This document shows, piece by piece, positions 12,807 through 36,964 of a stretch of 64,000 nucleotides of DNA. Below the pieces are notes generated by a model. That model had not been told where the DNA came from. It saw only the letters and a list, made by a program, of their open reading frames with translations, and searched no databases. Both the position numbers and the translations under genes were made by a program. Numbering within the stretch: position 1 is the stretch's first letter; every line of letters begins with the position of its first letter. The DNA is from Eubacterium sp. (GTDB lineage: Bacteria; Bacillota; Clostridia; Lachnospirales; Lachnospiraceae). Location: positions 85,116-149,115 of the forward strand of contig JAFRGL010000019.1 in assembly GCA_017433825.1 (NCBI GenBank). The letters are read 5' to 3'.

Positions 12807-13212
12807 AACAGATAGGGTCAGGACCTGCAGGCAGAGAGGGACTTTATCGTCTGTTTTGGTAATATTCCATAAATATGAACTTGAAATTTTGTGAACTGTT
12901 GATTCCGTAATTTGATGCATGTTATCAAGGAATATGATATAATAATATTAATAATCATTATTATATTTGACGAATTTCATCAGTTGCCGAGCATCAGTTT
13001 CGGAAGAAAAAGAAGGCATACAGCTTTTTGATGATATGTTTCAAAGAGTAGGTTCGTATTTATCGGAATTTTGCAACTTTAATAAGAAATAAGACTTGCC
13101 CGGGAATTCAAATTTGTAAAATTTTGAATAACAATTTTTCAGTCAGTATGGCGTTTTGTGGTAGAATAAAATCAGGAAAGAATATTAAAATCACAGATGG
13201 AGGAGAATGTAC
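12807..13212 (+). other. 406-base AT-rich intergenic region before GRE2
   Basis: I see no coding sequence here. The region holds an AT-only inverted repeat (ATAATAAT at 12939-12946 with ATTATTAT at 12957-12964) overlapping a TATAAT at 12938-12943. A second possible -10, TAGAAT, lies at 13162-13167 with a weak TTCAGT 18 bases upstream. GGAGGAG at 13199-13205 is the ribosome binding site of GRE2. The length suggests an untranslated leader or regulator sites. Confidence 0.45.
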
Positions 13213-15727: not shown

Positions 15728-18151
15728 ATGTACAAAAAAGCACCCATGACAGATCGTGTGGCACGTATCCGTGAAAGATACCGCAACACGATCCCGACCA
15801 TCGACGTAAACAGGTACAGAATCGTCACCGAGTTTTACATGGCAAACCCGCAGCTGCAGGGCAACCTCAAGAGGGCGAAAGCATTAAGGGAGATTTTCGA
15901 AAAGATGCCTACTCCCGTATTTGAGGATGATCTGATTGTCGGCTTCCCCGGCACCACCTACAGATGCTGCGCGCTGTATCCCGAATACGGCGGAATCTCC
16001 ACCATCGATGCAAGCCTGCAGAGAAATGAGATTCAGACCCGTAAGTCCGATACTTACAAGATTGAGCCCGAAGACATGGCCTACATTCATGAGACCGCTT
16101 CCTTCTGGGACAAGAACAACTACGGTGCCATCGCGAGAGAGTATTTCCCCGTTTACGGCGCAAACTTTACCGGCAACGGCGTAGTAGGCTACAGCCCCTT
16201 CTTTGCATACGGCGCACCCACCGGCCACTTTGCAGGCAACCATTTCAAAGCTGTAGACGTAGGTTTCAAGGCAGTTGCTGAAGAAGCTGAAGCGAAGATG
16301 CGCGAGATGGAAGAGAACGGTATCTTCGGACAGGACATCTACAAATACAACTTCTACCGCGGCATTGAAATCGTCTGCACAGGCTTCATTCACTATGCAG
16401 AGCGTTACGGCGCAGCGCTGGAGAAGCTGGCTGAGGAATGCACCGACGAAGCCAGGAAGGCTGAACTGCTTGAGATGGCCGACACCATGAACTGGATCAT
16501 CAAGAACCCGGCCAGGAACTTCCATGATGCCATCCAGATCGTGTATCTGTATCAGCTGGCCTTCATCCTTGACGGACAGCTGCACGGCCTGTCACTCGGA
16601 CGTGTTGACCAGTTCACCGGCAAATACTACGAGAAAGACCTTGCCGAAGGCAAGATTACACCTGAAAGAGCTCAGGAACTGGTAGACTGCTTCGTACTGA
16701 AGCTGGCCGAGAACAACAAGGTTACCCCCGGCAAGGACGGCTTCTCCGCAGCTCCCGGCTATACCTCCGGACAGCTTTGCACCATCGGCGGCGTACATCC
16801 CGACGGAACAGACGCCACCAACGCCGTAACCTATATGTTCCTGCAGGCAAACGGCCGTATGCAGCTGCACGATCCGCCCATTGCCCTTCGTGTGCATGAC
16901 GATATGCCTGATGACCTTTGGGAAGCAGCCATCGAGGCTTCCAAGCTCGCCGGCGGCGTACCTTCTTATGAATATGACGGCGTAATCATTCCTTCCCTTC
17001 TGAAGAAGGGCCTTTCCATTGAGGATGCCAGAAACTACCATCTGTGCGGCTGCGTAGAGCCCGCAGGCTTCGGTGACTGGGCAGATCCGGGCGGAGACGG
17101 AACTTCCGTATACCTGAATATCGCTGTCCTTCTGCTTCTGGCTATCAACAACGGTGTGAACCCGCTGCGCATGCCCGGCAGACCTGAACCCCGTCAGTCT
17201 GCTCTGCCCACCGGTTATCTGTATGAGATGAACTCCATCGAGGAAGTTATGGATGCCTGTGAGAAGCAGATGGAATATCTGATGAAATATCAGATCGCTT
17301 CCGTTAATGCGTGGGAATCCCAGGCCAGCTATCACCTGCAGCTGCCCATCGTTTCCGCGATGTTCCCGGGCTGCATGGAAAAAGGCATGGACGTTCAGCA
17401 GGGCGGTGCGAAGTACAACTCCACCGGTACCTCCTGCGTAGGCGTAGGCAACCTTGCCGACTCCGTAAGCATGATCGACCATCTGTGCTTCAAGGCCAAA
17501 AAGTGCACCACCAGGGAACTGTATGATGCCCTGATGGCCAACTGGGAAGGCTATGAAGAGCTTTACCAGTATGTCAACGGCAGAGCTCCGCACTACGGCA
17601 ATGCAGATCCCGAGTGCGACAAGTACATGACCTGGGCTGCCGAAATGTATGCGAAATCCGTTATCGGAAAGACCGGCCCGAGAGGCCAGTATACAGCAGG
17701 CTGCTATCCTGTAACCTTGAATGTTATGTATGGCTATGTTACCCCGGCTACCCCGGACGGCCGTAAGCTCGGCGATCCGCTGACCGACGGTATTTCCCCG
17801 CGTGCCGGCCTGGACAAGGGAGGCCCGGTAACCACCATCAACTCCCTGAACACCTTTGACCAGACCCTGTACGCCAACGGTACGCTGTGCAACATGAAGT
17901 TCCATCCCACATCCCTGAACCGTGCAGACGGCTGGAAGAAGCTGCGTGACGTTATGGCCACCTTCTTCACCGGCGGCGGCATGGAGCTGCAGCTGAACAT
18001 CGTATCTGCGGATACCTTAAGAGATGCTCAGAAGAATCCTGATAACTACAAAGACCTTGTTGTCCGTGTAGCCGGCTTCTCCGCATACTTCGTAGAAGTA
18101 TTCAAAGAGAACCAGGATGACCTGATCAGAAGAACAGAGATGTCCGTATAA
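15728..18151 (+). CDS. Glycyl radical enzyme 3
   Basis: This 807-residue GRE1-family paralogue is closest by eye to GRE2. The active-site cysteine is Cys442 in CGCVEPAGFGDW, with an extra Cys at 440. The radical glycine is Gly783 in RVAGFSAYF. AAGGAG precedes the ATG at 15728. The segment after residue 90 (ISTIDASLQRNEIQTRKSDTYKIEPEDM) differs strongly from the other paralogues and may shape the substrate pocket. Codon use is richer in GTT/GCA/GTA than in GRE1, a pattern also seen in the activase and aldehyde dehydrogenase genes, which may mark high expression. A strong terminator and a structured repeat follow. Confidence 0.9.
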   Translation: MYKKAPMTDRVARIRERYRNTIPTIDVNRYRIVTEFYMANPQLQGNLKRAKALREIFEKMPTPVFEDDLIVGFPGTTYRCCALYPEYGGISTIDASLQRNEIQTRKSDTYKIEPEDMAYIHETASFWDKNNYGAIAREYFPVYGANFTGNGVVGYSPFFAYGAPTGHFAGNHFKAVDVGFKAVAEEAEAKMREMEENGIFGQDIYKYNFYRGIEIVCTGFIHYAERYGAALEKLAEECTDEARKAELLEMADTMNWIIKNPARNFHDAIQIVYLYQLAFILDGQLHGLSLGRVDQFTGKYYEKDLAEGKITPERAQELVDCFVLKLAENNKVTPGKDGFSAAPGYTSGQLCTIGGVHPDGTDATNAVTYMFLQANGRMQLHDPPIALRVHDDMPDDLWEAAIEASKLAGGVPSYEYDGVIIPSLLKKGLSIEDARNYHLCGCVEPAGFGDWADPGGDGTSVYLNIAVLLLLAINNGVNPLRMPGRPEPRQSALPTGYLYEMNSIEEVMDACEKQMEYLMKYQIASVNAWESQASYHLQLPIVSAMFPGCMEKGMDVQQGGAKYNSTGTSCVGVGNLADSVSMIDHLCFKAKKCTTRELYDALMANWEGYEELYQYVNGRAPHYGNADPECDKYMTWAAEMYAKSVIGKTGPRGQYTAGCYPVTLNVMYGYVTPATPDGRKLGDPLTDGISPRAGLDKGGPVTTINSLNTFDQTLYANGTLCNMKFHPTSLNRADGWKKLRDVMATFFTGGGMELQLNIVSADTLRDAQKNPDNYKDLVVRVAGFSAYFVEVFKENQDDLIRRTEMSV

Positions 18152-18580: not shown

Positions 18581-21064
18581 ATGTACGTAAAAGCACCTGT
18601 TTCGGACCGGGTTGCGAGAATCCGGCAGAAATACCGTGAGACCAAACCGAAGGTAGATATGGCAAGGTACAGGCTGGTAACGGAATTCTATATGGAGAAT
18701 CCCCAGCTGACCGGTATTTTAAAGAAAGCAAAGAACTTGAGGAATCTGTTTGAGAAGATGCCCACCCCTGTATTCGAGGATGAGCTCATCGTCGGTTTCC
18801 AGGGCAGCACCTACCGCTGTTCCGCCGTTTATCCCGAAGTGGGATTTTCCTGGTTCATGGATGAGGTTTCCAGAAGGGACAAGGACGGCAACCGTTACAT
18901 CACCACCCGCGGCACCGACCCCTACGATATCGATGAAGAGGATGCGGAATACGGCCTTGCCACCGGTGATTTCTGGGTGAAATTCAACAACAGCCGCATG
19001 GCGGACGAATACATGCCCAGGGGCCTCCGTAAAGTGGAAGGCAACGGCGTCTGCTCCTTCCGGACCAAAGGTTCCTGCGGCGCGCCGGTCGGCCATTTCA
19101 CCGCGAACCAGTGGAAAGCGGTTGACAGAGGCTTCCTGTCCATTGCGGAAGAAGCCTGCGCGAAGATGGAGAAGCTGGAAGAGGACGGTATTTTCGGCAC
19201 TTCCATTTACCAGTACAATTTCTACCGCGCGGTTGATATTGTATGCCGCGGCCTGATTCATTATTCCGAGAGATATGCAAAAGAGTGCGAGCGCCAGGCA
19301 GCGGAATGCACCGATGAGAAGAGAAAAGCAGAGCTTCTGGATATGGCGGACTGCCTGAACTGGATTATGAAGAATCCGGCCAGGAACCTGCACGATGCCC
19401 TGCAGATTGTATACCTGTATCACCTGTCCTTCTGTCTGGATGCCCAGCAGCACGGTACATCCGTAGGCCGTGTGGACCAGTACGTCGGCAAATACGCCGA
19501 GGCTGATATTGCTGCCGGACGCCTGACCCGCGACGAGGCCCAGGAACTGGTGGACTGTTTCATCCTGAAGCTGGCCGAGTGCAACAAGGTGGGTTCCGAG
19601 GGCGGAGCCTCCGCCAACCCCGGCTACACCTCCGGCATGCTGATTACATCCGGCGGCGTTGACAAGGACGGCAATGACGCTTCCAACTGCGTTACCTATA
19701 TGCTTCTGCAGGCAAGCGGACGTCTTGCGCTGCATTCCCCGCCTCAGGCACTCCGGATTCATGACAACACCCCGGATGATCTGTGGGAGGCTGCCATTGA
19801 AGCCACCAAGCAGGCCGGCGGTGTACCTTCCTACGAGTATGACGGGGTTATCGTCCCGGCCCTGATGAAGAGGGGGCTTACCCTGGAGGATGCCAGAAAC
19901 TACGCCCTGATGGGCTGTGTGGAGCCCTGCGGCTGCGGTACCGAGTGGGCCCAGCCCGGCGGAACCGGAGCAGAATCCTACATCAATATCGCCGTTCTGT
20001 TCGATATTGCCATCAACAACGGCATCAATCCGTTCCAGATGCCCAAACAGGGTATGGGCGGCGAGGCTTCCCTGCTGGCGAAGAGACAGCCGGTGGAAGC
20101 AAGACAGACCGGCCTGCCCACAGGTTATCTGTATGAAATGAACAGCATCGAAGAGGTAATGGAGGCTGTGGACAAGCAGATGAAGTTCTTCTGCAAATGG
20201 CAGGCAAGCTGTATCGCTGCCTGGGAATCCATGGCCAGCTACAACATCCCGCTTCCCATCGTATCCGCCACTATGGACGGCTGCATGGAAAAGGGCATGG
20301 ACGTCATGTGGGGCGGCGCCAAGTATAACTCCACCGGCAACTCCTGCGTCGGCGTGGGCAACCTGGCAGACTGCATGAATATCGTGGATTATCTCTGCTT
20401 CAAGACCAAACAGGTTTCCACCAGAAGACTGTATGATGCCATCATGAACAACTGGGAGGGTGAAGAAGAGCTCCGTCAGTACATTGAAGGCAAATGCCCG
20501 CATTACGGCAATGCGGATCCGGAAGCGGACAAATGGATGACCTGGGCGGCCAACTGCTACGCGGATGCCATCAATGCCACTTCCGGCCCGAGAGGCAACA
20601 ACCTGCACGCAGGCTGCTACCCGGTAACCTTAAACGTACTGTTCGGCAAATTTACCCCGGCGACGCCTGACGGCAGAAGAACGGGCGATCCGCTGGCAGA
20701 CGGTATCTCACCGCGTGCCGGCATGGACAAAGGAGGCCCCTTAACCACCATCAACTCCCTTCTGACCTTCGACCAGACCAAGTACTCCAACGGTACCCTG
20801 TGCAACATGAAGTTCCATCCGACAGCCCTTTCCGGCGAAGGCGGCTGGAGGAAGCTGCGCGCGGTTATGGAAGCTTATTTCCAGGGCGGCGGCATGGAAC
20901 TGCAGCTGAACATCGTTTCCGCTGACACGCTGAAGGATGCCCAGAAGAATCCGGAGAACTACAAGGACCTGGTAGTCCGTGTAGCCGGTTTCTCCGCATA
21001 CTTTGTGGAAGTGTTCAAGGATTCCCAGGATGACCTCATCCGCAGAACCGAAATGAGCATCTGA
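18581..21064 (+). CDS. Glycyl radical enzyme 4
   Basis: At 827 residues this is the longest of the five close paralogues. Active-site Cys446 lies in GCVEPCGCGTEW and radical Gly803 in RVAGFSAYF. It is most similar to GRE5 through the first two thirds (for example RGLRKVEGNGVCSF, GHFTANQWKAVDRGF). The extra length comes mainly from a short insertion around residues 487-505 (KQGMGGEASLLAKRQPVE), soon after the active-site loop, where the others read NPMKMP...EPRQTG. AAAGGAG precedes the ATG at 18581. It is transcribed alone from its own promoter and ends at a clear terminator. The substrate is unknown. Confidence 0.9.
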   Translation: MYVKAPVSDRVARIRQKYRETKPKVDMARYRLVTEFYMENPQLTGILKKAKNLRNLFEKMPTPVFEDELIVGFQGSTYRCSAVYPEVGFSWFMDEVSRRDKDGNRYITTRGTDPYDIDEEDAEYGLATGDFWVKFNNSRMADEYMPRGLRKVEGNGVCSFRTKGSCGAPVGHFTANQWKAVDRGFLSIAEEACAKMEKLEEDGIFGTSIYQYNFYRAVDIVCRGLIHYSERYAKECERQAAECTDEKRKAELLDMADCLNWIMKNPARNLHDALQIVYLYHLSFCLDAQQHGTSVGRVDQYVGKYAEADIAAGRLTRDEAQELVDCFILKLAECNKVGSEGGASANPGYTSGMLITSGGVDKDGNDASNCVTYMLLQASGRLALHSPPQALRIHDNTPDDLWEAAIEATKQAGGVPSYEYDGVIVPALMKRGLTLEDARNYALMGCVEPCGCGTEWAQPGGTGAESYINIAVLFDIAINNGINPFQMPKQGMGGEASLLAKRQPVEARQTGLPTGYLYEMNSIEEVMEAVDKQMKFFCKWQASCIAAWESMASYNIPLPIVSATMDGCMEKGMDVMWGGAKYNSTGNSCVGVGNLADCMNIVDYLCFKTKQVSTRRLYDAIMNNWEGEEELRQYIEGKCPHYGNADPEADKWMTWAANCYADAINATSGPRGNNLHAGCYPVTLNVLFGKFTPATPDGRRTGDPLADGISPRAGMDKGGPLTTINSLLTFDQTKYSNGTLCNMKFHPTALSGEGGWRKLRAVMEAYFQGGGMELQLNIVSADTLKDAQKNPENYKDLVVRVAGFSAYFVEVFKDSQDDLIRRTEMSI

Positions 21065-21271: not shown

Positions 21272-23716
21272 ATGTTTCCTGTAAGAGAAGTAAATCCCGC
21301 CATTCTGGATGAAATTGAGAAGACTGATCTGGATGAACGGCGGAAAGCCTGGAAGGAGGCCATCAAGGCCGCTCCGTACAGAATGTACACCGACCGCCAG
21401 AAATACGCCACCGAGTCCTGGAAGGAGACGGCGGGCGAAGACCTGGAGCTTCGGCGGGCAAAGATGGTGGCCAAAATCGCGGAAAATGTGGACATCAATA
21501 TTCTGGAGTACGACTATATCGTCGGAAGGATAGGCCCCGGCATCGTGGGCAATTATACCGAGATCGATATCTGCGGCGACTACCTGGACGGACTGTGGAG
21601 CGACGAAGGCATTCAGTCCACGCTGCATGACAAGGTGCAGCTTTCCGCGGAAGAACTGGAGGTTTTAAGGGAGGCGGTCCGCACCTTCAAAAACCAGAAC
21701 CCGGTGGACTGCGTGAACAAGGTATTTGCGGAAGTCCTGGGCGACTGGCCAAAAGACGTGGTGGACGCCCATTTGAAAGACCCGGACCTTTCCAGCGGCA
21801 ATTTCGGCAACTGCACCAATACCTATGATTTCGAGAAAATCCTGAGGGTGGGCGTTAAAGGCTACCGGGAGGAGGCGCAGAAGCACATTGACGACTATCT
21901 GGCAAATATGACCCAGGAAGTTGAGAAATACATTTTCTGGAAAAGCGCGGTCATTATCTGCGACGCGGCCATAAACCTGGCACACAGGTATGCCGATCTT
22001 GCCAGGAAATACGCGGAAGAGGAGCAGGATCCGGTCCGCAAAGCCGAACTTTTCTCGATTGCCGAAACCTGCGAATATGTGCCGGAAAACCCGGCCCGCA
22101 CCTTCCGTGAAGCCCTGCAGTCCATCGTGCTGGTGGGCCTGATGAAGGCCTTCGAGCATCCGATGCACAACCAGCCTCACTGGGGCAGGGGCGATACTTA
22201 TCTGTATCCCTTCTTCATAAAGGATATCAATGAAGGAAGGATTACCTGCCAGGAAGCCTTAAATATGCTGGCCGAGGTCATCGGGCGCTGGGGCACCCAG
22301 CTGCAGGTGCAGAGCAACCTGCACAAGCAGACGCACCAGATTACCTACGGCATCAACAGCATGAACTTAGGCGGCATCGGGCCTGACGGCGTGGAAAACG
22401 CCAATGAGCTCAGCTACCTGTTCCTGCACGCGGTGGGCCTTCTGCATATGTCCAGCCCGACGGTAACCATCAACTGGACCAGCGCCACCCCGGACTGGTT
22501 CATGAAGAAAGCCATCATGGTTAACCGCCAGACCGGCGGCGGGATCCCGCTTTTTGAAAATGACGAGCATATGGTGGAAAGCTTCGTCCGGGACGGCGTG
22601 CCCATCGAGGAGGCCAGGACCTGGATCGGCCGCGGCTGTGTATGGCCGGCTCTGCCGCAGCGTTCCGAATACAAGGGCGGCGCGGCAGGCTTCAACTCTG
22701 CGGCCATGCTGGATATGGCGCTGCACAACGGCGTTGCGGCCACCGGCAAGAAGCTGGGCATTGAAACCGGCGACCCCAGGGAATTCAAAACCTTCGAAGA
22801 GTTCTATGAAGCCTATGTGAAGCAGCATAACTTCGTCATGCGCCGCACCCTATGGCTGGCGGACATTGCCCGGGACAACCAGTACAAATACTTAAGACTT
22901 CCCGCGCTTTCCGTCTTTTCCATCCGCCAGTGCATGGACAAGGGCCGGGACACCATGATTCCGGACGTGCAGTGCGAGTACGGCATTACCGACCGGGCGA
23001 TCATCGACTGCGCGGATTCCCTGATGGCCATTAAGAAGCTGGTTTATGATGACAAAGTACTGACCATGGCAGAGCTGATAGACGCCCTGGATTCCGATTT
23101 TGCCGGGGAACGCGGCGAGGAAATCCGGCAGATGTGCCTGAAAGCCCCGAAGTTCGGCAACGGAATAGATGAGGTGGATGAACTGGCCGGACGCGTGGGC
23201 CAGATGTCATCGGATTCGCTGACCAGCTGGGATCACAGCCCCTATCCTCCCTTCAAGTCGGTGCGGGAAGGCCTTTCCTGGCATTACGCCGCGGGCCTTG
23301 GCGTGCGCGCCTTGCCCAACGGAAGGATGGCGTTCGAGCCCTTAAACGACGCTTCCGCCTCCCCCATGCGCGGCATGGACAAAAACGGCCCCACAGCCGT
23401 GCTCCGCTCGGTGCTCAAAGCTGATTTCGGCAGGGGAAGCTACGTCAGCGCCTTGAACCAGAAGTTCCCCACCAGCGTGGTGAAAACAGACGCGGATGTT
23501 GAGAAACTGGCTGCCTATACCAGCGCTTTCCTGAAGGCCGGCGGTACGCATATCCAGTACAATATCGTGAATTCCGAGGACTTAAAGGACGCCAAGGTCC
23601 ATCCGGACAAACACCAGGATCTGATTGTACGGGTAGGCGGTTTCTCCGCTTATTTCGTACAGCTGTCCGAGGGTATCCAGGATGATGTCATCGGCCGTTC
23701 CGAACACAGCCTGTAA
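21272..23716 (+). CDS. Divergent glycyl radical enzyme 6
   Basis: This 814-residue glycyl radical enzyme is clearly distinct from GRE1-5. The radical glycine is Gly790 in RVGGFSAYF and the active-site cysteine is Cys456 in GRGCVWPALP. Trp stands where dehydratase and lyase members have the Glu of Cys-x-Glu, so ordinary radical dehydration is unlikely. Decarboxylase, C-C lyase or addition chemistry remain possible. The N-terminus (MFPVREVNPAILDEIEKTD) does not match the MY.KAP family. It is followed after 33 bases by the cystatin-like lipoprotein gene with no terminator between, so the two may be co-transcribed. AAGAAGGAGAAG precedes the start. Confidence 0.88.
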   Translation: MFPVREVNPAILDEIEKTDLDERRKAWKEAIKAAPYRMYTDRQKYATESWKETAGEDLELRRAKMVAKIAENVDINILEYDYIVGRIGPGIVGNYTEIDICGDYLDGLWSDEGIQSTLHDKVQLSAEELEVLREAVRTFKNQNPVDCVNKVFAEVLGDWPKDVVDAHLKDPDLSSGNFGNCTNTYDFEKILRVGVKGYREEAQKHIDDYLANMTQEVEKYIFWKSAVIICDAAINLAHRYADLARKYAEEEQDPVRKAELFSIAETCEYVPENPARTFREALQSIVLVGLMKAFEHPMHNQPHWGRGDTYLYPFFIKDINEGRITCQEALNMLAEVIGRWGTQLQVQSNLHKQTHQITYGINSMNLGGIGPDGVENANELSYLFLHAVGLLHMSSPTVTINWTSATPDWFMKKAIMVNRQTGGGIPLFENDEHMVESFVRDGVPIEEARTWIGRGCVWPALPQRSEYKGGAAGFNSAAMLDMALHNGVAATGKKLGIETGDPREFKTFEEFYEAYVKQHNFVMRRTLWLADIARDNQYKYLRLPALSVFSIRQCMDKGRDTMIPDVQCEYGITDRAIIDCADSLMAIKKLVYDDKVLTMAELIDALDSDFAGERGEEIRQMCLKAPKFGNGIDEVDELAGRVGQMSSDSLTSWDHSPYPPFKSVREGLSWHYAAGLGVRALPNGRMAFEPLNDASASPMRGMDKNGPTAVLRSVLKADFGRGSYVSALNQKFPTSVVKTDADVEKLAAYTSAFLKAGGTHIQYNIVNSEDLKDAKVHPDKHQDLIVRVGGFSAYFVQLSEGIQDDVIGRSEHSL

Positions 23717-27465: not shown

Positions 27466-29913
27466 ATGTACGTAAAAGCACCGATTTCAGACCGCGTAGC
27501 GAGAATCCGCGAGCGGTACCGCAGCACCAAGCCGAAAGTAGATATGGCCAGATACAGACTGGTTACAGAGTTCTACAAAGAGAATCCCCAGCTGACCGGT
27601 ATTCTCAAAAAGGCGAAAAACTTACGGAATCTGTTCGAGAATATGCCCACCCCCGTATTTGAGGATGAGCTCATCGTCGGTTTCCAGGGAGCAACCTACA
27701 GAAGCTCTGCCGTTTATCCGGAAGTTGGCTTCCAGTGGTTCTTTGATGAGGTGGGCAAATTCGACGCCAACGGCAAGCGAATCATCACCACCAGGACCAC
27801 CGACCCCTATGACATCGATGAAGAAGATGCGGAATACGGCCTTGCCACCGGAGAATTCTGGCTGCAGTTCAACAACAGCCGTATGGCGGACGAATACATG
27901 CCCAGAGGCCTTCGCAAGATCGCCGGCAACGGCGTCTGCCTGTTTTCCCCGGTCCGTTCCTGCGGCGCGCCGGTAGGCCATTTCACTGCCAACCAGTGGA
28001 AAGCGGTTGACAGAGGCTTCCTTTCCATCGCGGAAGAAGCCTGCGCGAAGATGGAGAAGCTGGAAGAGGACGGTATTTTCGGAACTTCCATTTACCAGTA
28101 CAACTTCTACCGCGCGGTTGACATTGTGTGCCGCGGCATCATCCGTTATTCCGAAAGGTATGCGGAAGAGTGCCTGCGCCAGGCAGAAGAGTGTACGGAC
28201 GAGAAGAGAAAAGCAGAACTTCTCGATATGGCGGACTGCCTGAACTGGATTATGAAGAACCCGGCCAGAAACCTGCATGATGCCCTGCAGATCGTGTATC
28301 TGTATCATCTGTCCTTCTGTCTGGATGCCCAGCAGCATGGCACGAGCGTAGGCCGTCTTGACCAGTATGTGGGCAAATATGCCGAAGCGGATATCGCTTC
28401 CGGCAGACTGACGAAAGAGGAAGCCCAGGAGCTTATTGACTGTACCATCCTGAAGTTCGCGGAATGCAACAAGGTCGGTTCCGAAGGCGCTTCCGCCGCG
28501 AACCCCGGCTATACCTCCGGCATGCTGACCACCCTGGGCGGCGTTGACAAGGACGGCAATGATGCCTCCAACGTTGCCACCTATATGATTCTGCAGGCCA
28601 ACAGCCGTATGTACCTGCACGATCCGCCTCTGGCGCTGCGTATCCATGACAAGACCCCGGATGACCTTTGGGAGGCTGCCATTGAGGCTACAAAGATGGC
28701 CGGCGGCGTACCTTCCTACGAATATGACGGCGTTATTATTCCCGGCCTGATGAAGAGAGGCCTGACCCTGGAGGATGCCAGAAACTACGCCCTTATGGGC
28801 TGCGTGGAGCCCTGCGGCTGCGGTACCGAGTGGGCACAGCCCGGCGGCACCGGCGCGGAATCCTACATGAATATCGCCACCTGTCTGCTCATCGCCATCA
28901 ACAACGGCACGAACCCGATGAAGATGCCGTTCCCGGGTGCTCCCGAACCCAGACAGACCGGTCTTCCCACCGGCTATCTGTATGAGATGAACAGCATTGA
29001 AGATGTTATGGAAGCCGTAGACAAGCAGATGAAGTTCTTCTGCAAATGGCAGGCCAGCTGTATCGCTGCCTGGGAGTCCATGGCCAGCTTCAACATCCCG
29101 CTTCCGATTGTATCCGCCACCATGGACGGCTGCATGGAAAAGGGTATGGACGTTATGTGGGGCGGCGCCAAGTATAACTCCACCGGCAACTCCAACGTCG
29201 GCGTGGGCAACCTGGCAGACTCCATGAACATTCTGGAGCAGGTAGTCTTCAAAGAGAAGAGATGCACCACCAGGGAAATGTACGATGCGCTGATGAATAA
29301 CTGGAAGGGTTATGAGGAGCTGCAGCAGTACATCAACGGCAAGGCGAAACACTACGGCAACGGTATTCCGGAGTGCGATAAATGGATGACCTGGGCGGCC
29401 GACTGCTACGCAGACGCCATCAATGCGACTTCCGGTCCGAGAGGCAACCACCTGCATGCAGGCTGCTATCCCGTAACCGCAAACGTGGGCTTCGGCCGTA
29501 TGACCGGCGCTACCCCGGACGGCAGAAATGCCGGTGAACCGCTTTGCGACGGTATTTCCCCGCGTCAGGGCTTCGACAAGGGCGGCCCCTTAACCACCAT
29601 CAACTCCCTGCTGACCTTCGATCAGACGAAGTACTCCAACGGCACGCTGTGCAACATGAAATTCCATCCGACAGCCCTGAACCGTGAGGACGGCTGGAAG
29701 AAGCTTCGTGATGTCATGTCCACCTACTTCGAAGGCGGCGGCATGGAGCTGCAGCTGAACATCGTTTCCGCTGATACCTTAAAGGATGCGCAGGAGCATC
29801 CGGAAAACTACAAGGATCTGGTTGTCCGTGTAGCCGGCTTCTCCGCATACTTCGTGGAAGTGTTCAAAGATTCCCAGGATGACCTTATCCGTCGTACCGA
29901 GATGAACCTGTAA
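27466..29913 (+). CDS. Glycyl radical enzyme 5
   Basis: This 815-residue GRE1-family paralogue has active-site Cys446 in GCVEPCGCGTEW and radical Gly791 in RVAGFSAYF. Most of the protein is close to GRE4. The part around residues 590-612 (VVFKEKRCTTREMYDALMN) instead matches GRE1, including 60 identical bases (29239-29298 against 7982-8041). The gene therefore appears mosaic. AAAGGAGAAG precedes the ATG at 27466. It is transcribed alone and ends at a long terminator followed by a structured repeat. As for the other paralogues, elimination chemistry is likely and the substrate is unknown. Confidence 0.9.
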   Translation: MYVKAPISDRVARIRERYRSTKPKVDMARYRLVTEFYKENPQLTGILKKAKNLRNLFENMPTPVFEDELIVGFQGATYRSSAVYPEVGFQWFFDEVGKFDANGKRIITTRTTDPYDIDEEDAEYGLATGEFWLQFNNSRMADEYMPRGLRKIAGNGVCLFSPVRSCGAPVGHFTANQWKAVDRGFLSIAEEACAKMEKLEEDGIFGTSIYQYNFYRAVDIVCRGIIRYSERYAEECLRQAEECTDEKRKAELLDMADCLNWIMKNPARNLHDALQIVYLYHLSFCLDAQQHGTSVGRLDQYVGKYAEADIASGRLTKEEAQELIDCTILKFAECNKVGSEGASAANPGYTSGMLTTLGGVDKDGNDASNVATYMILQANSRMYLHDPPLALRIHDKTPDDLWEAAIEATKMAGGVPSYEYDGVIIPGLMKRGLTLEDARNYALMGCVEPCGCGTEWAQPGGTGAESYMNIATCLLIAINNGTNPMKMPFPGAPEPRQTGLPTGYLYEMNSIEDVMEAVDKQMKFFCKWQASCIAAWESMASFNIPLPIVSATMDGCMEKGMDVMWGGAKYNSTGNSNVGVGNLADSMNILEQVVFKEKRCTTREMYDALMNNWKGYEELQQYINGKAKHYGNGIPECDKWMTWAADCYADAINATSGPRGNHLHAGCYPVTANVGFGRMTGATPDGRNAGEPLCDGISPRQGFDKGGPLTTINSLLTFDQTKYSNGTLCNMKFHPTALNREDGWKKLRDVMSTYFEGGGMELQLNIVSADTLKDAQEHPENYKDLVVRVAGFSAYFVEVFKDSQDDLIRRTEMNL

Positions 29914-30120: not shown

Positions 30121-31200
30121 TCAGAACAGCACATCCTTAAAACACATCCTCTGTTCATTTTTATCATAATCCCAGCTGTGGCAGGCGCCGCCCGCGCAGA
30201 ATTCCAGCTGGCTGCAGGTTCTGCATTTTTCGCTTTTCTCCGCAAGACCGCCCCGGAAAATCTGAAAACCGTTTTCCCAGACGTCTTTCAGGCGGTCGGT
30301 CAGGATATTTCCGAAGACCGTTTCCGGCCGGCGTTCGATGTCCAGACAGCTGGTGATATCGCCGGTGGAAGTGATGGCGGCCACATAGATGCCTGCATTG
30401 CAGATAAAATAGTGCTTCCGCACTTCACGTTCATAATCCAGTCCAAGGAAATGGCTGCAGCCATAGGTTAAGGGCATGCCTTCCGAACGTTTTTCCCGGA
30501 TAAAATCAAACAGATACCGGTAATCCTCACCGGTCAGCATCATTTCCGGGTGCGCGAGAGCCCGGCCGATGGGCTCAATGCCGATGATGCGCCAGGAATC
30601 GATGTCGATACCGCAGAAAATATCATACATCGGTTCCAGCTCGTGCATGTTGGTGTGATTTATCACCGTGGTTACCTGCACATGACGAAAACCGCCTTCT
30701 TCCAGAAGGCAGTTAATCCCCCGCATGGCGGCATCGTAACCGCCCGGCGTCCGCCGGAAACGGTCATGGGTTTCTTTAAGACCGTCGATGGAGACGGAGA
30801 TGGTGCCCATGCCGCATTCATGCAGTTTCCGGGCGCAGCCGGCGTCAATCAGGGTGCCGTTGCTGGTCATGCCCCAGTGATATCCGAGATCCTTTGCAAA
30901 CCCCAGGATATCGAAGAAATCGGTGCGCAGCAGCGGTTCCCCGCCGGTGATGCAAAGCTGGAAAGACTTCACGTCAAAATCCGCGTCGACGTCAGTCAGG
31001 ATTTTTTTGTATTGTTCCAAAGACAGTTCAAAACCGCCGGTGTAGTCGCAGCTGCTTCCGCAGTGGAGGCAGTGTTCGTTGCACCGGCTGGTCAGTTCCA
31101 GAAACAGGAATTTCAGGATGGGCTTTTTCTGCAGCTGCTTTTTATAATCCGCAAGCTGGCGCAGATGGCCTTCTTTGATTTTTGCAAGTTCGGTTTTCAT
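30121..31200 (-). CDS. Radical SAM/SPASM-domain protein, likely peptide maturase
   Basis: This 359-residue protein has the radical SAM motif CNEHCLHC (Cys40, 44, 47), the GGEPLLR motif, and a C-terminal SPASM-type cysteine set (YFICNAG, ITSCLDI, CRTCSQLEFCAGGACHSW, and a last Cys near the end) for auxiliary iron-sulfur clusters. This architecture is typical of enzymes that modify peptides or proteins (RiPP maturases, anaerobic sulfatase maturases). No sulfatase is nearby. Instead the gene lies 29 bases downstream of, and in the same direction as, a small exported peptide with three VYGPP repeats, its most plausible substrate. It does not have the ferredoxin insert expected of a GRE activase. 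Confidence 0.85.
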   Translation of the reverse strand: MKTELAKIKEGHLRQLADYKKQLQKKPILKFLFLELTSRCNEHCLHCGSSCDYTGGFELSLEQYKKILTDVDADFDVKSFQLCITGGEPLLRTDFFDILGFAKDLGYHWGMTSNGTLIDAGCARKLHECGMGTISVSIDGLKETHDRFRRTPGGYDAAMRGINCLLEEGGFRHVQVTTVINHTNMHELEPMYDIFCGIDIDSWRIIGIEPIGRALAHPEMMLTGEDYRYLFDFIREKRSEGMPLTYGCSHFLGLDYEREVRKHYFICNAGIYVAAITSTGDITSCLDIERRPETVFGNILTDRLKDVWENGFQIFRGGLAEKSEKCRTCSQLEFCAGGACHSWDYDKNEQRMCFKDVLF

Positions 31201-31229
31201 GTGTATGCCGCCCGCTTAATTCTGCAGCT

Positions 31230-31499
31230 TTACGGTTCGAAATCCACCGGAGGCCCGTAAACGTCTTCCGGGATGTTTTCCTCCGGGTCAAACTGTGACA
31301 CTGCGCTGTATTCATTATCTTCCGGAGGCCCGTAAACCGGTTCGGAAACGTTTTCTGAAGAGTCATACTTCGATTCGCTGACAACATCATCAGGCGGAGG
31401 TCCGTAGACACTTTCAGGCCTGTTGACGCAGGCGACAAAGGCAGCCGCGGCCACGGCAGCGGCAGTGCCGGTGATAACCAGTTTTTTTGATTTTTTCAT
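31230..31499 (-). CDS. Small exported peptide with three VYGPP repeats
   Basis: This 89-residue product starts at 31499, chosen because AGGAG lies seven bases upstream. Residues 1-24 are a signal peptide (MKKSKKLVITGTAAAVAAAA, then FVAC), possibly lipidated at Cys24. The mature part has three units: VYGPPPDD at 31-38, VYGPPEDN at 55-62 and VYGPPVDF at 80-87. The first two are each followed by a linker of about 16-17 residues with a Ser/Lys/Gln-Tyr/Phe-Asp pattern. Repetition of an aromatic-Gly-Pro-Pro core, acidic spacers and an adjacent radical SAM/SPASM gene suggest a multi-core modified peptide. It could also be an unmodified small lipoprotein. Confidence 0.7.
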   Translation of the reverse strand: MKKSKKLVITGTAAAVAAAAFVACVNRPESVYGPPPDDVVSESKYDSSENVSEPVYGPPEDNEYSAVSQFDPEENIPEDVYGPPVDFEP

Positions 31500-31574
31500 G
31501 GCAGTTCTCCTAAAGGGCATGGGAATATGCCGTTGCATTTTATGCGCGAAAAGCATGATACAGACTGTTCTTTC

Positions 31575-31705: not shown

Positions 31706-33340
31706 ATGAAAAACCAGGAACCGGCAAAGTTTGCCGGAAATGACAGACAGGAGAATAACACGGCCGCGTATTATGTGCTGGACGACGGGCAGTCATACGA
31801 AGACAGCCCGTACCGGGATACGCCGCTTCCCGCGCGGGATACGTCCCTTCCCCTCCGGGACAGAAGTATGCCTGCCCGCAAGGATGAGATACCGGAGCAG
31901 ATCCGCAAAATGCGCCGGCTGTACGAATACAGCGACGGAAGCTTCCGGCAGAAATGCAAGAACTTCTATCTCCAGGGCATGTACATGAAGGATTATGAGG
32001 ATGACGCGCCATGGAACGGCCGTTTCCGGCATTATTTCCCTGTGTACCAGGACCTGGGCGTGGATCAGCTGAGGGGGTATTTCACCTGGAGGACCGCGGT
32101 GCGCCGCGGCACTTATCCGGAAGGCAATACCTGCTACGCCTATCTGTATCTTTACGAGCTCTTAAACGGCATCGGAAGCGAAAGTCCGGAAGACACGCTT
32201 TCGAAAATGAAAGCCTTCGAGAATGGCTATCTGGACGCCGGATACGGGGATCCGGCCATGCGCAAAAACCTGCACCGCTGGCTGCTGGAATACGCCGTGG
32301 TGAAGAACCTGCCCGCAGAAGAGGCGGCATCCTTTGCGGATCCGGCTGTCAGGGCCTGGGATCACGCCATGGCGGTGCTGCAGGCACCGGATGGATGTTC
32401 GGATGAGGAGCTTTTCGAAGCCATTGAAAGCCTGCCGGGAAACCGGCTCGGAAGCTCCGTAACGGTGGTGAAGGAAGGCGCGGCCGCGAAAAAGCTGTTT
32501 GCCCGTCTCTGGCGGCATATTGTATCGTCCTACAGGGAAAAAGGCAGGGATTTCTTCACGGAATGCTTCGGAAAAAAGAGAATCTACCTGTGGCATCCCT
32601 TGGGCAACGCGGTTTACTGGGAGCATCACAGGCAGGAAAAAACGGATTACGTGCTGAATGAAAGCCGGCGATTCTACCGCAGGGAGGGCGTCTGGTACGA
32701 GGAAAGCTACCAGAGCCTGTATTTCAACAAACGGAAGTTCAATGCGCTGTTCCACGAAGCGGACCGGCAGTTCCGGGATTATCTGAAGACCGGCCATTCC
32801 TTAAAGGCCAAGCCGGAGGAAGCCTGGGCGGCATCTTTCGTGGAGGAAATCATCGCGGAAGACCGGAAGGAAAAGACGGAAGCGGCAAGGCCGAAGATTG
32901 TCATCGATTTTTCGGGCCTTGAGAAGATCCGGCAGGACGCGGAAATCACCAAGGCCAGCCTTCTGACGGAAGAGGAACGGGCGGAGGAAGCAAAAGCGGC
33001 GCAGGCGGATGAGCCGCAAAAGGAGCCCCCGCGGCAGATTCTGCCGGACGGTGTAAAAGAAGCGGAAGAAGGGCAGCAATCCGGAAAGGACAGTCTTCAC
33101 GGAAGAATTCGGGAATATCTTTCCGATGAACACCTGGTGCGCCTGGTGCATATGCTGCTTTCCGGAAGGGATGCGGCGGCCTTCCTTTCAGCAGGCCGTC
33201 TGATGCCCACGGTTGCGGCGGATGCCGTAAACGAAGCGCTGTTCGACCTGGTGGGGGACAATGTACTGGAATGCGAAGATGACAGGCTTTCCCTGGTGGA
33301 GGATTACCGGGAAGACCTGATGAAATTGTTTGAGGAATAA
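31706..33340 (+). CDS. TerB-N/TerB-C domain protein
   Basis: The product has 544 residues. The region around 95-150 (LRGYFTWRTAVRRGTYPEG, then YAYLYLYELLNGIG) matches the TerB-N domain known from tellurite-resistance-associated and stress or defence gene neighbourhoods. The last 80 residues (EHLVRLVHMLLSGRD to VEDYREDLMKLFEE) look like TerB-C. Between them is a charged, Glu/Ala-rich linker around 405-450. An N-terminal Pro/Arg repeat (DTPLPARDTSLPLRDRSMPAR) is low complexity. No enzyme motif is visible. It starts a tight operon with an ATPase (two bases between) and a helicase, so it probably acts as the scaffold or sensor of that three-gene system. Confidence 0.75.
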   Translation: MKNQEPAKFAGNDRQENNTAAYYVLDDGQSYEDSPYRDTPLPARDTSLPLRDRSMPARKDEIPEQIRKMRRLYEYSDGSFRQKCKNFYLQGMYMKDYEDDAPWNGRFRHYFPVYQDLGVDQLRGYFTWRTAVRRGTYPEGNTCYAYLYLYELLNGIGSESPEDTLSKMKAFENGYLDAGYGDPAMRKNLHRWLLEYAVVKNLPAEEAASFADPAVRAWDHAMAVLQAPDGCSDEELFEAIESLPGNRLGSSVTVVKEGAAAKKLFARLWRHIVSSYREKGRDFFTECFGKKRIYLWHPLGNAVYWEHHRQEKTDYVLNESRRFYRREGVWYEESYQSLYFNKRKFNALFHEADRQFRDYLKTGHSLKAKPEEAWAASFVEEIIAEDRKEKTEAARPKIVIDFSGLEKIRQDAEITKASLLTEEERAEEAKAAQADEPQKEPPRQILPDGVKEAEEGQQSGKDSLHGRIREYLSDEHLVRLVHMLLSGRDAAAFLSAGRLMPTVAADAVNEALFDLVGDNVLECEDDRLSLVEDYREDLMKLFEE

Positions 33341-33342
33341 AG

Positions 33343-34674
33343 ATGGGAGAAGAGAACAGAAAAGTACCGAAAAGGATAGCCCAGACGGTGATTAATTCCT
33401 TAAAAGGCGGCGTGGTGCCCAGAATCGGCCTGCCATACATTACCGTAGGCCGGAAGAACGAGATAGCCGCGCTACTGCACGACGTGGATATCATCTCTGA
33501 GGGCGGCGCCTCCTGCCGTTTCATCGTGGGAAAATACGGTTCGGGCAAAAGCTTCCTGCTCCAGACCATCCGGAACTACGTGATGGACAGGGGCTTTATC
33601 GTGGCCGACGCGGATCTTTCGCCGGAAAGACGGCTGATGGGCACAAAAGGCCAGGGCCTGGCCACGTACCGCGAGCTTATCGGCAATCTTTCCACGAAAA
33701 CCAGGCCGGAGGGCGGCGCCCTCACCCTGGTGCTGGACCGCTGGATTAACGCCTGCCGGTCGGAGGCTGCGCTGGAAACCGGGCTTTCCCCTGCGGACCC
33801 CGCCCTTGCGGCCGCGGTGGACCGGAAGATTTACGAAGTAACGGCACAGATCAACGAGCTGGTGCACGGCTTTGAATTCGCAAGGCTTCTGTCCGTTTAT
33901 TACCATGCCTATCTGGAGGGAAACGACGACACCAAGGCGAGGGTCATCCGGTGGTTCCGGGGAGAATACAGCCTGAAAAGGGAAGCCCGGGAAGATTTGG
34001 GCGTCAACATCATCATTACGGATGACGACTGGTATGATTATCTGAAGCTTTTTGCCGTGTTTTTCCGCCTGGCGGGCTACACGGGTATGATGATCATGAT
34101 CGACGAGCTGGTGAACATTTACAAGATACCGAATTCAGTGACCAGGCAGTACAACTATGAGAAGCTTCTGACCATGTACAACGACACCCTGCAGGGCAAG
34201 GCCAGGTATCTGGGAATCCTGATGGGCTGCACGCCCCAGGCCCTGGAGGACAGGCGCAGAGGGCTTTACAGCTATGAGGCCCTGCGTTCAAGGCTTGCGG
34301 AGGGACGTTTTTCAAAGCCCAATGCCCGGGACCTTCTGGCGCCGGTTATCCGGCTTGACCCCTTAACGGCGGAGGAAATGCTGGTTTTATGCGAGAAGCT
34401 TGCTGATTTGCATGCGGGCCTGTACGGTTATGAGCGCAGTCTGGGAACCGCGGACCTTGCGGTATTTATCCGGATGGAATACGAACGCATCGGGGCGGAT
34501 ACCAATATCACGCCCAGGGAAGTGATCCGGGATTTCATTGAACTTCTGGACCTCCTGAGCCAGAATCCGGGCCTTTCTGTTTCTGATCTTCTGAAATCAG
34601 AGGATTTTTCCTACGCGAAATCCGAGGCGGTATCCGACAACGCGGACGAGGACTTTGCCGAATTTACGGTATAA
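33343..34674 (+). CDS. BrxD-like ATP-binding protein (DUF2791 type)
   Basis: This 443-residue P-loop ATPase has Walker A VGKYGSGKS at residues 62-70 and Walker B MIMIDEL near 248-254. Segments such as GRKNEIAALLHDVD and YNDTLQGKARYLGILMGCTPQ are like the BREX-associated BrxD family. BrxD proteins occur with an Lhr-type helicase in BREX type 2 phage defence, and the same pairing is seen here. No other BREX gene (pglZ, pglX, brxC) is present. The gene starts two bases after the TerB protein stop and ends just before the helicase start. Its likely role is as the ATPase partner in the same complex. Confidence 0.8.
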   Translation: MGEENRKVPKRIAQTVINSLKGGVVPRIGLPYITVGRKNEIAALLHDVDIISEGGASCRFIVGKYGSGKSFLLQTIRNYVMDRGFIVADADLSPERRLMGTKGQGLATYRELIGNLSTKTRPEGGALTLVLDRWINACRSEAALETGLSPADPALAAAVDRKIYEVTAQINELVHGFEFARLLSVYYHAYLEGNDDTKARVIRWFRGEYSLKREAREDLGVNIIITDDDWYDYLKLFAVFFRLAGYTGMMIMIDELVNIYKIPNSVTRQYNYEKLLTMYNDTLQGKARYLGILMGCTPQALEDRRRGLYSYEALRSRLAEGRFSKPNARDLLAPVIRLDPLTAEEMLVLCEKLADLHAGLYGYERSLGTADLAVFIRMEYERIGADTNITPREVIRDFIELLDLLSQNPGLSVSDLLKSEDFSYAKSEAVSDNADEDFAEFTV

Positions 34675-34687
34675 GGAGCTTAAAACG

Positions 34688-36964
34688 ATGGACGTTTTCA
34701 ACCGTTATGCCCCCTTTATACAGGATTATATTTACCGCAGCGGCTGGCAGGCCCTGCGGGCCGTGCAGAACGCGGCGGGGGATGCGATATTCAATACGCA
34801 GGAAAATGTGCTGCTGACGGCTTCCACGGCTTCCGGCAAGACGGAGGCTGCCTTTTTCCCGATACTCACCCTCCTTTCGGAAGAACCTTCCTGGTCGGTG
34901 GGGGCTTTATACATCGCGCCGTTAAAAGCGCTTATCAACGACCAGTTCATACGGCTTGACGAGCTGTGTGAGGAAGCGGATATCCCGGTGACCAAATGGC
35001 ACGGGGACGCGTCGGAATCCAGGAAGCGGAAGCTTTTAAAGAAACCGTCGGGCATCCTGCAGATAACGCCGGAGTCCCTGGAATCCCTGATGATCCGCAA
35101 GCACATGGAGATTCCCTCCCTGTTCGGAGACCTGCGGTTTATCGTGGTGGATGAAATTCATTCGCTTCTGCGGGCGGACCGGGGCCTTCAGACCTTCTGC
35201 CTCATCGAAAGACTCTGCCGTCTGGCGGGCTGCAGTCCCAGAAGGATAGGCCTTTCCGCCACCATCGGAAACCCGGAGGAAGCAGGAAAATTCCTGGCGG
35301 CGGGCAGCGGGCACGGCACCGTGATTCCGAAGTTTGACGGCGGAAAAGAGGTCTGGCGGCTTTCCATGGAGCATTTCTACAATACACCGCCCCAGGCGGG
35401 CGAGAAAGAAGCCCATGCGGCGGTGCAGGCGGGGATTTCCCTGAATAAGGAAGAGCCGGAACTGACGTATATCGAGCCTGCGACCGACACCGCGCCTGCG
35501 GCGGCGGACCCCGGGCTTGCCTATATCTTCGACCATACAAAAGGGAAAAAATGCCTGGTGTTCACCAATTCCAGGGAGGAATGCGAGTCTGTCTGCCAGC
35601 AGCTTCGGCAGTACTGTGAGGCAAACGGCGAGCCGGACCGGTTCCTGATCCACCACGGCAACCTGTCTGCCTCCTTCCGTGAAAGCGCGGAAGAGGAGAT
35701 GAAGGATGATGATTCCCTGCTGTCCGTATGCGCCACCGCAACCCTGGAGCTGGGCATCGACATCGGAAAGCTGGAGCGGGCTTTCCAGATAGACGCGCCG
35801 TTCACCGTTTCCGGCTTCCTGCAGCGCATGGGCCGCACCGGCAGGAGGGGGAATCCTTCGGAAATGTGGTTCGTCATGCGGGAGGATCATCCGGAACCCC
35901 GGTCCGTGCTGCCGGAAATGATACCCTGGTACCTTATCCAGGGAATTGCGCTGGTGCAGCTGTACCTGGAAGAACGGTTTGTGGAGCCGCCCCGGACGGA
36001 CAGGCTGCCCTTCAGCCTCCTGTACCACCAGACCATGAGCACCCTGGCTTCCGGCGGGGAGATGACGGCAGCAGAGCTGGCAAGCCGCGTGCTTCCGCTT
36101 TCTGCTTTTTCCCGGATCACGAAAGAGGATTACCGGATACTGCTCACGCATCTGATTGCCATCGATCACATCAACCGCACGGAAAACGGCGGCCTTATTG
36201 TAGGGCTTACCGGCGAGCGGGTGGTCAACCAGTATAAATTCTTCGCGGTATTTCAGGAAAATATCGAATACGCGGTGCGAAGCGGCGCGGAAGAGCTGGG
36301 CACCATCGTCAAACCGCCGCCTGTGGGCGACAAAATCGCCATTGCCGGCCGTGTCTGGGTCGTGGAGGAAGTGGACCATAAAAAGAGGATGGTCTGGTGT
36401 TCCCTGGTAAAGGGCAATATCCCCGCGTATTTCGGTGACGTGGCGGGGGATATCCACACCCATATTCTGGAGCGGATGCAGAAGGTACTGGCCGAGGACC
36501 AAAGCTACCGTTTCCTCCTGCCCCACGCGAAAGCCAGGCTTTCGGATGCCAGGGCGGTTTTTGGCCAGACAAGGATGGCGGAAAAGCCCCTGATTTCCTT
36601 AGGCGGGAAAATGTGGGTGCTTTATCCGTGGCTCGGAACCTATGCCTTCCTGGCCATGGAACGTTTCCTGAAGCTTCGGTGCGCAAAAAGGCTGGGCCTT
36701 TCAGGCCTTTCCTCCGTGAGACCCTACTACATGCAGTTTACCATGCAGGTATCTGAAGAGGAGTTCTTCCGGATCGTGGAAGAGGAAGCGGAAAAGGAGT
36801 TCGATGCGGAAAGCCTCCTGTATGAAAAGGAAGTGCCCGTCTTCGACAAATACGATGAATTCGTGCCGCCGGTCCTGGTGCGCAAAGGCTTTGCCGAAGG
36901 CGTCCTTGACATAGAAGGCATGAAGAAAAGAGTAAGAGAATGGACAAAACCGGCGGGAAAATAA
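34688..36964 (+). CDS. Lhr/BrxHI-like DEAD/DEAH helicase
   Basis: This superfamily 2 helicase has 758 residues. Motif I is TASTASGKTEA (45-55), motif II DEIH (155-158), motif III SATIG, and motif VI QRMGRTGRRG. A long C-terminal region follows, as in Lhr/BrxHI helicases. The ATG at 34688 is chosen because AAGGAG lies ten bases before it. An in-frame ATG at 34655 overlaps the ATPase gene and has no site. It is the third gene of the operon with the TerB and BrxD-like proteins, so unwinding or remodelling of nucleic acid is the likely enzymatic output of that system. Confidence 0.88.
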   Translation: MDVFNRYAPFIQDYIYRSGWQALRAVQNAAGDAIFNTQENVLLTASTASGKTEAAFFPILTLLSEEPSWSVGALYIAPLKALINDQFIRLDELCEEADIPVTKWHGDASESRKRKLLKKPSGILQITPESLESLMIRKHMEIPSLFGDLRFIVVDEIHSLLRADRGLQTFCLIERLCRLAGCSPRRIGLSATIGNPEEAGKFLAAGSGHGTVIPKFDGGKEVWRLSMEHFYNTPPQAGEKEAHAAVQAGISLNKEEPELTYIEPATDTAPAAADPGLAYIFDHTKGKKCLVFTNSREECESVCQQLRQYCEANGEPDRFLIHHGNLSASFRESAEEEMKDDDSLLSVCATATLELGIDIGKLERAFQIDAPFTVSGFLQRMGRTGRRGNPSEMWFVMREDHPEPRSVLPEMIPWYLIQGIALVQLYLEERFVEPPRTDRLPFSLLYHQTMSTLASGGEMTAAELASRVLPLSAFSRITKEDYRILLTHLIAIDHINRTENGGLIVGLTGERVVNQYKFFAVFQENIEYAVRSGAEELGTIVKPPPVGDKIAIAGRVWVVEEVDHKKRMVWCSLVKGNIPAYFGDVAGDIHTHILERMQKVLAEDQSYRFLLPHAKARLSDARAVFGQTRMAEKPLISLGGKMWVLYPWLGTYAFLAMERFLKLRCAKRLGLSGLSSVRPYYMQFTMQVSEEEFFRIVEEEAEKEFDAESLLYEKEVPVFDKYDEFVPPVLVRKGFAEGVLDIEGMKKRVREWTKPAGK

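Follow-up and report, generated by a model that had tools for sequence, protein, structure and literature searches.

Gene content of the locus

In the window, the whole stretch of 64,000 nucleotides analysed here, two neighbouring genes on the minus strand encode a small protein with a repeated motif and a radical SAM (rSAM)/SPASM enzyme. Their features are as follows.

31230..31499, minus strand: exported, probably lipidated, putative substrate protein of 89 aa with three VYGPP motifs (P0001), from the sequence and its relatives
31428..31499, minus strand: signal peptide, residues 1 to 24, with a weak lipobox FVAC and Cys24, recognized by eye
31395..31409, minus strand: VYGPP motif 1, residues 31 to 35
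31323..31337, minus strand: VYGPP motif 2, residues 55 to 59
31248..31262, minus strand: VYGPP motif 3, residues 80 to 84
31507..31511, minus strand: likely ribosome-binding site AGGAG, 7 nt upstream of the ATG of the peptide, read from the sequence
30121..31200, minus strand: radical SAM/SPASM enzyme of 359 aa, assigned to the Clostridia branch of the TIGR04133 group by profile matches and trees
31060..31083, minus strand: CX3CX2C radical SAM cluster motif, Cys40/44/47 (residues 40 to 47), from the alignment

An earlier note on this DNA had described an 89-residue product with three VYGPP units, spaced by 24 to 25 residues with acidic linkers, directly followed by a 359-residue radical SAM/SPASM protein. 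Both descriptions hold, with the minus strand added: the motifs start at residues 31, 55 and 80 (spacing 24 and 25), the linkers between them are acidic, and the gap from the stop codon of the peptide to the ATG of the enzyme is 29 nt. The signal peptide or lipobox proposed there is consistent with a Lys-rich N terminus followed by a hydrophobic stretch and with Cys24, but FVAC is only a weak lipobox, and relatives of the protein have better ones. Cys24 is the sole cysteine of P0001, and Cys donors for a sactipeptide or ranthipeptide core are absent.

The three motifs are encoded by two different codon sets. In the 2.6-Mb source assembly (92.66% complete), the VYGPP-coding DNA pattern had exactly three matches, all within the peptide gene, and a control (the pattern read backwards) had six; the 89-aa peptide searched against its own genome gave one match. 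A chance motif is ruled out by these genome-wide pattern counts and by the codon evidence given below. Promoter-like matches around the pair were at chance level (2 found versus 1.5 expected). Pfam and NCBIfam assigned no family to the short substrates P0001, L055, L052, L110 and L098, which gave only weak signal-peptide matches below cut-off. Neither P0001 (at E up to 1) nor any of 10 relatives (at E up to 10) matched TIGR04134, and across the 295 genomes examined from the order nothing scored above the cut-off of that model.

With 75.7 bits for Radical_SAM (cut-off 29.5) and 34.6 bits for SPASM (PF13186, cut-off 21.5), the enzyme scored above both Pfam cut-offs. Among 90 aligned family members, Cys40/44/47 are present in 100% and Cys51, just after them, in 96%, and Cys326/329/335/353 of the SPASM domain are retained in 99%. 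However, the CX2CX5CX3C set is incomplete, its fourth Cys (that of X3C) being absent: Cys340 occurs in 4% of these 90 members and His341 in 98%, and a related Nostoc enzyme has that fourth Cys. The best curated model was TIGR04133 (rSAM_w_lipo) with 267.4 bits, below its cut-off of 425, which was reached by none of 195 relatives. The score against TIGR04103, which we take to be the PlpX family, was 101.9 bits (cut-off 725), no better than that of several other models, and the MftC model TIGR03962 gave 118.5 bits (cut-off 265).

Two other groups of genes in the window are worth recording. Three genes at 31706-36964 (plus strand), divergent from the pair and adjoining it, match the PADLOC models SngA (225 bits), SngB (626 bits) and SngC (917 bits) and presumably form a Shango anti-phage system. 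Five glycyl radical enzyme genes, also on the plus strand and coding for 807 to 827 aa, lie at 13207-15639, 15728-18151, 18581-21064, 21272-23716 and 27466-29913; all five scored below the curated cut-offs of the NCBIfam families listed.

Pairing of the enzyme with motif proteins

We scanned the named genome collection with the enzyme alone, obtaining 413 relatives, the best 80 of which were kept. They are labeled Lachnospiraceae, Ruminococcus (several R. flavefaciens), Oscillospiraceae, Erysipelotrichaceae and unplaced Clostridia, and come mostly from gut and rumen. A same-strand open reading frame (ORF) with [VLAIMTS]YGPP was present at all 80 kept loci (best 80 of 413), the nearest one lying upstream of the enzyme in 78 and downstream in 2, and in 61 of the 80 its end was 0 to 28 nt from the enzyme. 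These best 80 of the 413 loci hold 132 motif ORFs with 328 YGPP in all and no opposite-strand ORF with at least two motifs. The enzyme and the repeated-motif protein are a dedicated pair, as the earlier note had supposed. A sulfatase maturase or another housekeeping rSAM enzyme was dropped as a candidate, given the motif protein at every kept locus.

Smaller samples gave the same picture. Among seven genomes of the genus, the peptide was found in four, with the enzyme directly after it in each; the other three, which are 77 to 82% complete, were without both genes and gave weak radical SAM matches only. The TIGR04133 model had 10 matches of at least 219 bits among the 195 relatives (the next scored 189), and an xYGP protein adjoins the enzyme in nine of them (seven YGPP proteins and two zinc ribbons). 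The tenth is an enzyme without CX3CX2C (genome G047, L015 1456-2496, minus strand), with no motif protein in the fetched 1.4-kb flanks. Thus, the enzyme does not sit mostly beside other substrates, an outcome that would have spoken against the proposed pair. Phylum-wide it is rare: of 398 genomes, 2 had it, namely the source genome and a second one in which a two-motif lipoprotein adjoins it.

We also followed the motif independently of its position. In-frame VYGPP clusters, with the frame judged from spacing (a VYGPP pair in G170 is 74 nt apart and hence out of frame), occurred in 6 of the 195 relatives, all six with a strong enzyme match, and in none of the 185 relatives without an enzyme match of at least 219 bits. 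A spread of VYGPP clusters without the enzyme, which would also have spoken against the pair, was not seen, although single off-locus VYGPP proteins exist in enzyme-bearing genomes. In 10 genomes, all picked for holding the enzyme (contig identity for the locus-derived ones was matched by coordinates), 43 of the 49 matches to the VYGPP pattern lay at the enzyme locus. Of the remaining six, three belong to two lipoproteins of R. flavefaciens FD-1, one of which has two matches. A protein that looks dockerin-like by eye and a zinc ribbon account for one match each, and the last is probably noise; the 4- to 7-kb stretches around them showed no enzyme. The motif also occurs away from the enzyme locus, motif proteins without an adjoining enzyme exist, and the off-locus VYGPP proteins in R. 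flavefaciens and related genomes make substrates in trans likely.

The carriers of the motif are diverse. By simple regular expressions, the 132 motif ORFs (best 80 of 413 loci) include 81 with a lipobox and 48 that look dockerin-like, 5 being counted in both groups, and 8 with neither feature. A loose pattern found a lipobox-like Cys immediately or nearly immediately ahead of the motif in 26 of the 132. Pfam Dockerin_1 was above its cut-off in five proteins, pre-picked as dockerin-like, among 10 tested. In a fusion from the same genus (L003 1120-1752, plus strand), three VYGPP stand behind a DUF805 multi-pass membrane domain. Four further carriers are zinc-ribbon proteins:

L007 2510-2911, plus strand: zinc-ribbon protein
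L011 2570-2884, minus strand: zinc-ribbon protein
L151 2985-3980, plus strand: zinc-ribbon protein
L221 1915-3240, plus strand: zinc-ribbon protein

These carry IYGPKP, IYGPMP, [IL]YGSP or CVYGPP and show no signal peptide by eye. Within the 195 genomes, strong relatives of the zinc-ribbon protein were limited to the two that have IYGPKP or IYGPMP beside the enzyme, and weak matches (E 1e-4 to 9e-4) came from 11 others. The open frame of L221 runs on into an ArgC-looking protein. L151 is an IMG/VR "viral" contig with the enzyme (59% identity); there the ORFs beside the enzyme resemble bacterial genes for phenylalanyl-tRNA synthetase, so that the stretch is probably bacterial. Among the other neighbors at the best 80 of the 413 loci (ORFs of at least 70 aa; 52 loci exceed 8 kb), no non-substrate family was present in more than 10 loci, and the same screen, with its many short flanks, found no conserved peptidase, exporter, RRE or PlpY-like gene.

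The motif itself was analyzed in 122 substrate ORFs which, having been picked for holding it, are biased in favor of its conservation: YGPP occurred 310 times, YG[^P]P 8 times and YGP[^P] 38 times, making Pro nearly fixed at position 3 (348/356, YGP versus YG[^P]P), [^Y]GPP and Y[^G]PP were each observed once versus 9.8 and 6.8 expected, and the residue preceding YGPP was V in 239, L in 33 and A in 19 cases. FGPP, WGPP and HGPP were absent, against the 328 YGPP of the 132 ORFs (best 80 of 413 loci). At the codon level, in 33 non-overlapping ortholog pairs (sharing no ORF, yet in part drawn from common loci and from related species, and subject to the same bias), the Tyr-Gly codons had an amino-acid change in 4 of 174 (2.3%) and a silent one in 44 of 174 (25%), compared with 1188 of 4730 (25%) and 1013 of 4730 (21%) for the other codons. 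As amino-acid changes are rare at Tyr-Gly while silent ones are as common as elsewhere, selection appears to act on the protein motif. The core had been given as an aromatic residue beside Gly-Pro-Pro, of which Tyr-Gly stands as the fixed part; the preceding residue varies, and so do the prolines, between families.

Relationship to TIGR04133 and, probably, to the PlpX-like enzymes

In the phylogenetic tree, the enzyme family and three TIGR04133-type enzymes (two of them annotated so) formed one clade with support of 100/99. The enzyme family, TIGR04133 and the PlpX-like groups clustered at 98/97, apart from MftC, PqqE, NirJ, TIGR04347 and TIGR04053, a value obtained only with PeaB, BlsE, an AhbD-like row, an Indioceanicola row, L025 and L028 left out; in earlier trees, the same deep branch had 82/70 in one and no resolution in another. 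By the AU test, grouping the enzyme with MftC/PqqE had a p of 0.031 and with NirJ/TIGR04347/TIGR04053/L026 a p of 0.022, for groups that were named after the trees had been seen and with sister-clade rows picked by similarity to the enzyme. On sequence grounds, we assign the enzyme to a Clostridia branch of TIGR04133, and, less firmly, it appears related to the PlpX-like (splicease) clade.

Tyr-Gly sites also accompany the relatives. Partners of TIGR04133-type enzymes carry CYGMP, EYGSP and EYGTP in lipoproteins of Treponema, Parabacteroides and Phocaeicola; the Treponema and Parabacteroides enzymes are annotated members located on plasmids, and the Phocaeicola one is unannotated. In Nostoc, a "nif11-class peptide radical SAM maturase 3" adjoins a Nif11 precursor ending in LYGLPPELF and a 71-aa gene. 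Within the sister clade, a likely YG precursor was seen only at L016, L017 and L019 among the loci L016 to L024 (ca. 1.4-kb flanks). At L016 (2488-3045, minus strand; Lachnospirales), a 186-residue frame with four xYGYP lies beside a different rSAM enzyme; by eye the frame is of the nitrile-hydratase-leader type, and it is likely a multi-core spliceotide precursor. Five DUF1843 peptides beside Azospirillum or Aureibacter enzymes were mixed, two having PYGPAM or PYGAGI, two YA and one neither.

Candidate reaction and comparison with known systems

The VYGPP motif is almost certainly the site on which the enzyme acts. We propose that the enzyme would be a dedicated cytosolic modifier of the neighboring protein, working on each Val-Tyr-Gly. 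A 5'-deoxyadenosyl radical would most likely be used on the tyrosine, in the manner of the PlpX splicease, a tyramine equivalent would be taken out and the chain rejoined, so that alpha-keto-beta-valine would stand before Gly-Pro-Pro at each former VYG (mass change about -135.07 Da per site). After modification, the protein would be exported and lipid anchored, or held in relatives by a dockerin or membrane domain. Its arms would then expose several ketoamide electrophiles, which could plausibly inhibit proteases or offer points of covalent attachment. We give this whole explanation, a splicease-type tyramine excision on a surface protein, a probability of about 0.5. The chances that tyramine is excised at VYG appear evenly balanced, and protease inhibition as the role seems rather doubtful. 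Several observations count against splicing: no PlpY-like gene was seen, the SPASM Cys set is changed, the TIGR04103 score is low, and Pro is nearly fixed at position 3, where splicing does not need it.

Part of the same evidence could be read as a crosslink, which we consider improbable. Triceptide-type rSAM/SPASM enzymes form three-residue cyclophanes, in which the middle residue (position 2) is usually free. Here, the Tyr ring would be joined to the beta-carbon of a following residue (Tyr-Gly-Pro), which would lower the mass by 2 Da per motif and make the repeats rigid. The single aromatic per repeat, the repeated sites, the SPASM enzyme and the near-fixed Pro would suit such a product. However, Gly is fixed at position 2, although other residues are usually tolerated there, related pairs have S, T, M, L or Y at position 3, no other aromatic takes the place of Tyr before GPP, and the tree puts the enzyme with the XYG clade, if at 98/97 only after rows had been dropped. 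Splicing fits better than a cyclophane because Tyr-Gly is fixed, an aliphatic residue precedes it and Tyr is not replaced.

Another change of Tyr or Gly by radical chemistry without excision, such as Tyr desaturation, epimerization or MftC-like chemistry, is similarly improbable. The specificity for Tyr would fit phenol-assisted radical chemistry, and MftC, whose model outscored TIGR04103, works on a Val-Tyr end. In MftC substrates, however, the Tyr is C-terminal (two mftA genes that we read both end in GVY), whereas that of VYGPP is internal with a Gly after it, and a clade with MftC and PqqE is disfavored by the AU test.

The earlier note had framed the pair as a RiPP natural-product system, with the VYGPP repeats as cores that are cut out and released. 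This is very unlikely. Short multi-repeat precursors beside a SPASM maturase are what one would look for in such a system, but a signal peptide or lipobox (by eye) replaces the leader, the screen of neighboring ORFs of at least 70 aa turned up no conserved gene for a peptidase, exporter or RRE, and the motif is also borne by dockerin proteins and zinc ribbons. The lack of a leader and of such genes, together with the dockerin, DUF805 and zinc-ribbon carriers, looks like modification of functional proteins. Least probable of all is an unmodified binding motif, with the enzyme making something else: Pro-rich motifs in acidic arms do resemble protein-binding motifs, and the modification is so far something we infer, but one enzyme is paired with unrelated carriers (lipoprotein, dockerin, DUF805 fusion, zinc ribbon) that have the motif as their common part, and the 1.4-kb flanks of the degenerate G047 enzyme are free of motif proteins.

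Returning to tyramine excision, a known type of enzyme clade here meets an apparently new class of protein substrates. More tentatively, TIGR04133 and its Clostridia branch could represent a broad, undescribed backbone splicing of repeated x-Y-G-P sites in lipoproteins, dockerin proteins and zinc ribbons, leading to electrophile arrays on gut and rumen surfaces and on cellulosomes that would inhibit proteases or bond covalently to neighbors. If true, radical backbone splicing would also modify surface proteins of gut and rumen bacteria, beyond natural products, and could offer leader-independent, multi-site protein-labeling enzymes from anaerobes. It could also account for some of the R. flavefaciens dockerin proteins of unknown function; 118 dockerin proteins with regions of unknown nature are reported for this species (PMC2930009).

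One of the closest known systems is the TIGR04133/TIGR04134 pair, which NCBIfam names without a stated reaction. The earlier statement that no described class has this core is therefore right as regards the reaction but not as regards the pair, which would gain a defined site of action and a reaction open to test. The literature covered contained nothing on VYGPP, on YGPP with radical SAM or on TIGR04133/TIGR04134 (the Scott 2022 splicease survey, which may list such proteins, lay outside this coverage), nothing relevant on dockerin with radical SAM, where no title concerned R. flavefaciens, and of the TIGR04134-type lipoprotein names only PG1828 was mentioned. Both systems have enzymes of one clade and an adjoining lipoprotein partner, and in the three of three TIGR04133 partners examined, YG[STM]P lies at or within ca. 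10 residues of the Cys by the lipobox. In contrast, TIGR04134 partners have a domain after the motif that the 89-aa protein lacks by eye; this protein has repeated motifs and no TIGR04134 match, its enzyme is below the TIGR04133 cut-off, and the Clostridia branch adds dockerin, zinc-ribbon and DUF805 carriers. MftC (TIGR03962) is likewise an rSAM/SPASM enzyme acting on Val-Tyr, but at the C terminus and with the chaperone MftB.

PlpX spliceases share with the pair an rSAM/SPASM enzyme, an x-Y-G site with Pro nearby, a neighboring X-Y-G substrate (present at 80 of the 80 kept loci, best 80 of 413) and the same side of the 98/97 branch. According to PMC10533398, PlpX acts without a leader, and the VYGPP protein likewise has none; the published tags are GPIRP[LG]YGLPI, and LYGLPI/GYGLPI tags in FtsZ were mostly unmodified, with one modified. 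The differences are a Nif11/NHLP leader and a PlpY/RRE partner in PlpX systems, neither of which was seen for the VYGPP pair with its signal-peptide substrates, the SPASM Cys pattern and the TIGR04103 score far below cut-off. A review lists the PlpX splicease family as IPR026482 (PMC11002830), and spliceotide products are described as protease inhibitors in PMC11117315.

This last role has a counterpart on cellulosomes. Serpins and Dpi are reported as dockerin-borne protease inhibitors of cellulosomes (PMC12484212), and SIGN-Doc-SERPIN entries appear for R. flavefaciens in PMC2930009. Since such inhibitors are known (PMC12484212), a protease-inhibitor role is reasonable for Ruminococcus. Conversion of the arms to ketoamides would likewise let dockerin-xYGPP proteins put protease inhibitors on the cellulosome; serpins and Dpi do so with an inhibitor fold, whereas in dockerin-xYGPP proteins the warhead would be the modified backbone itself.
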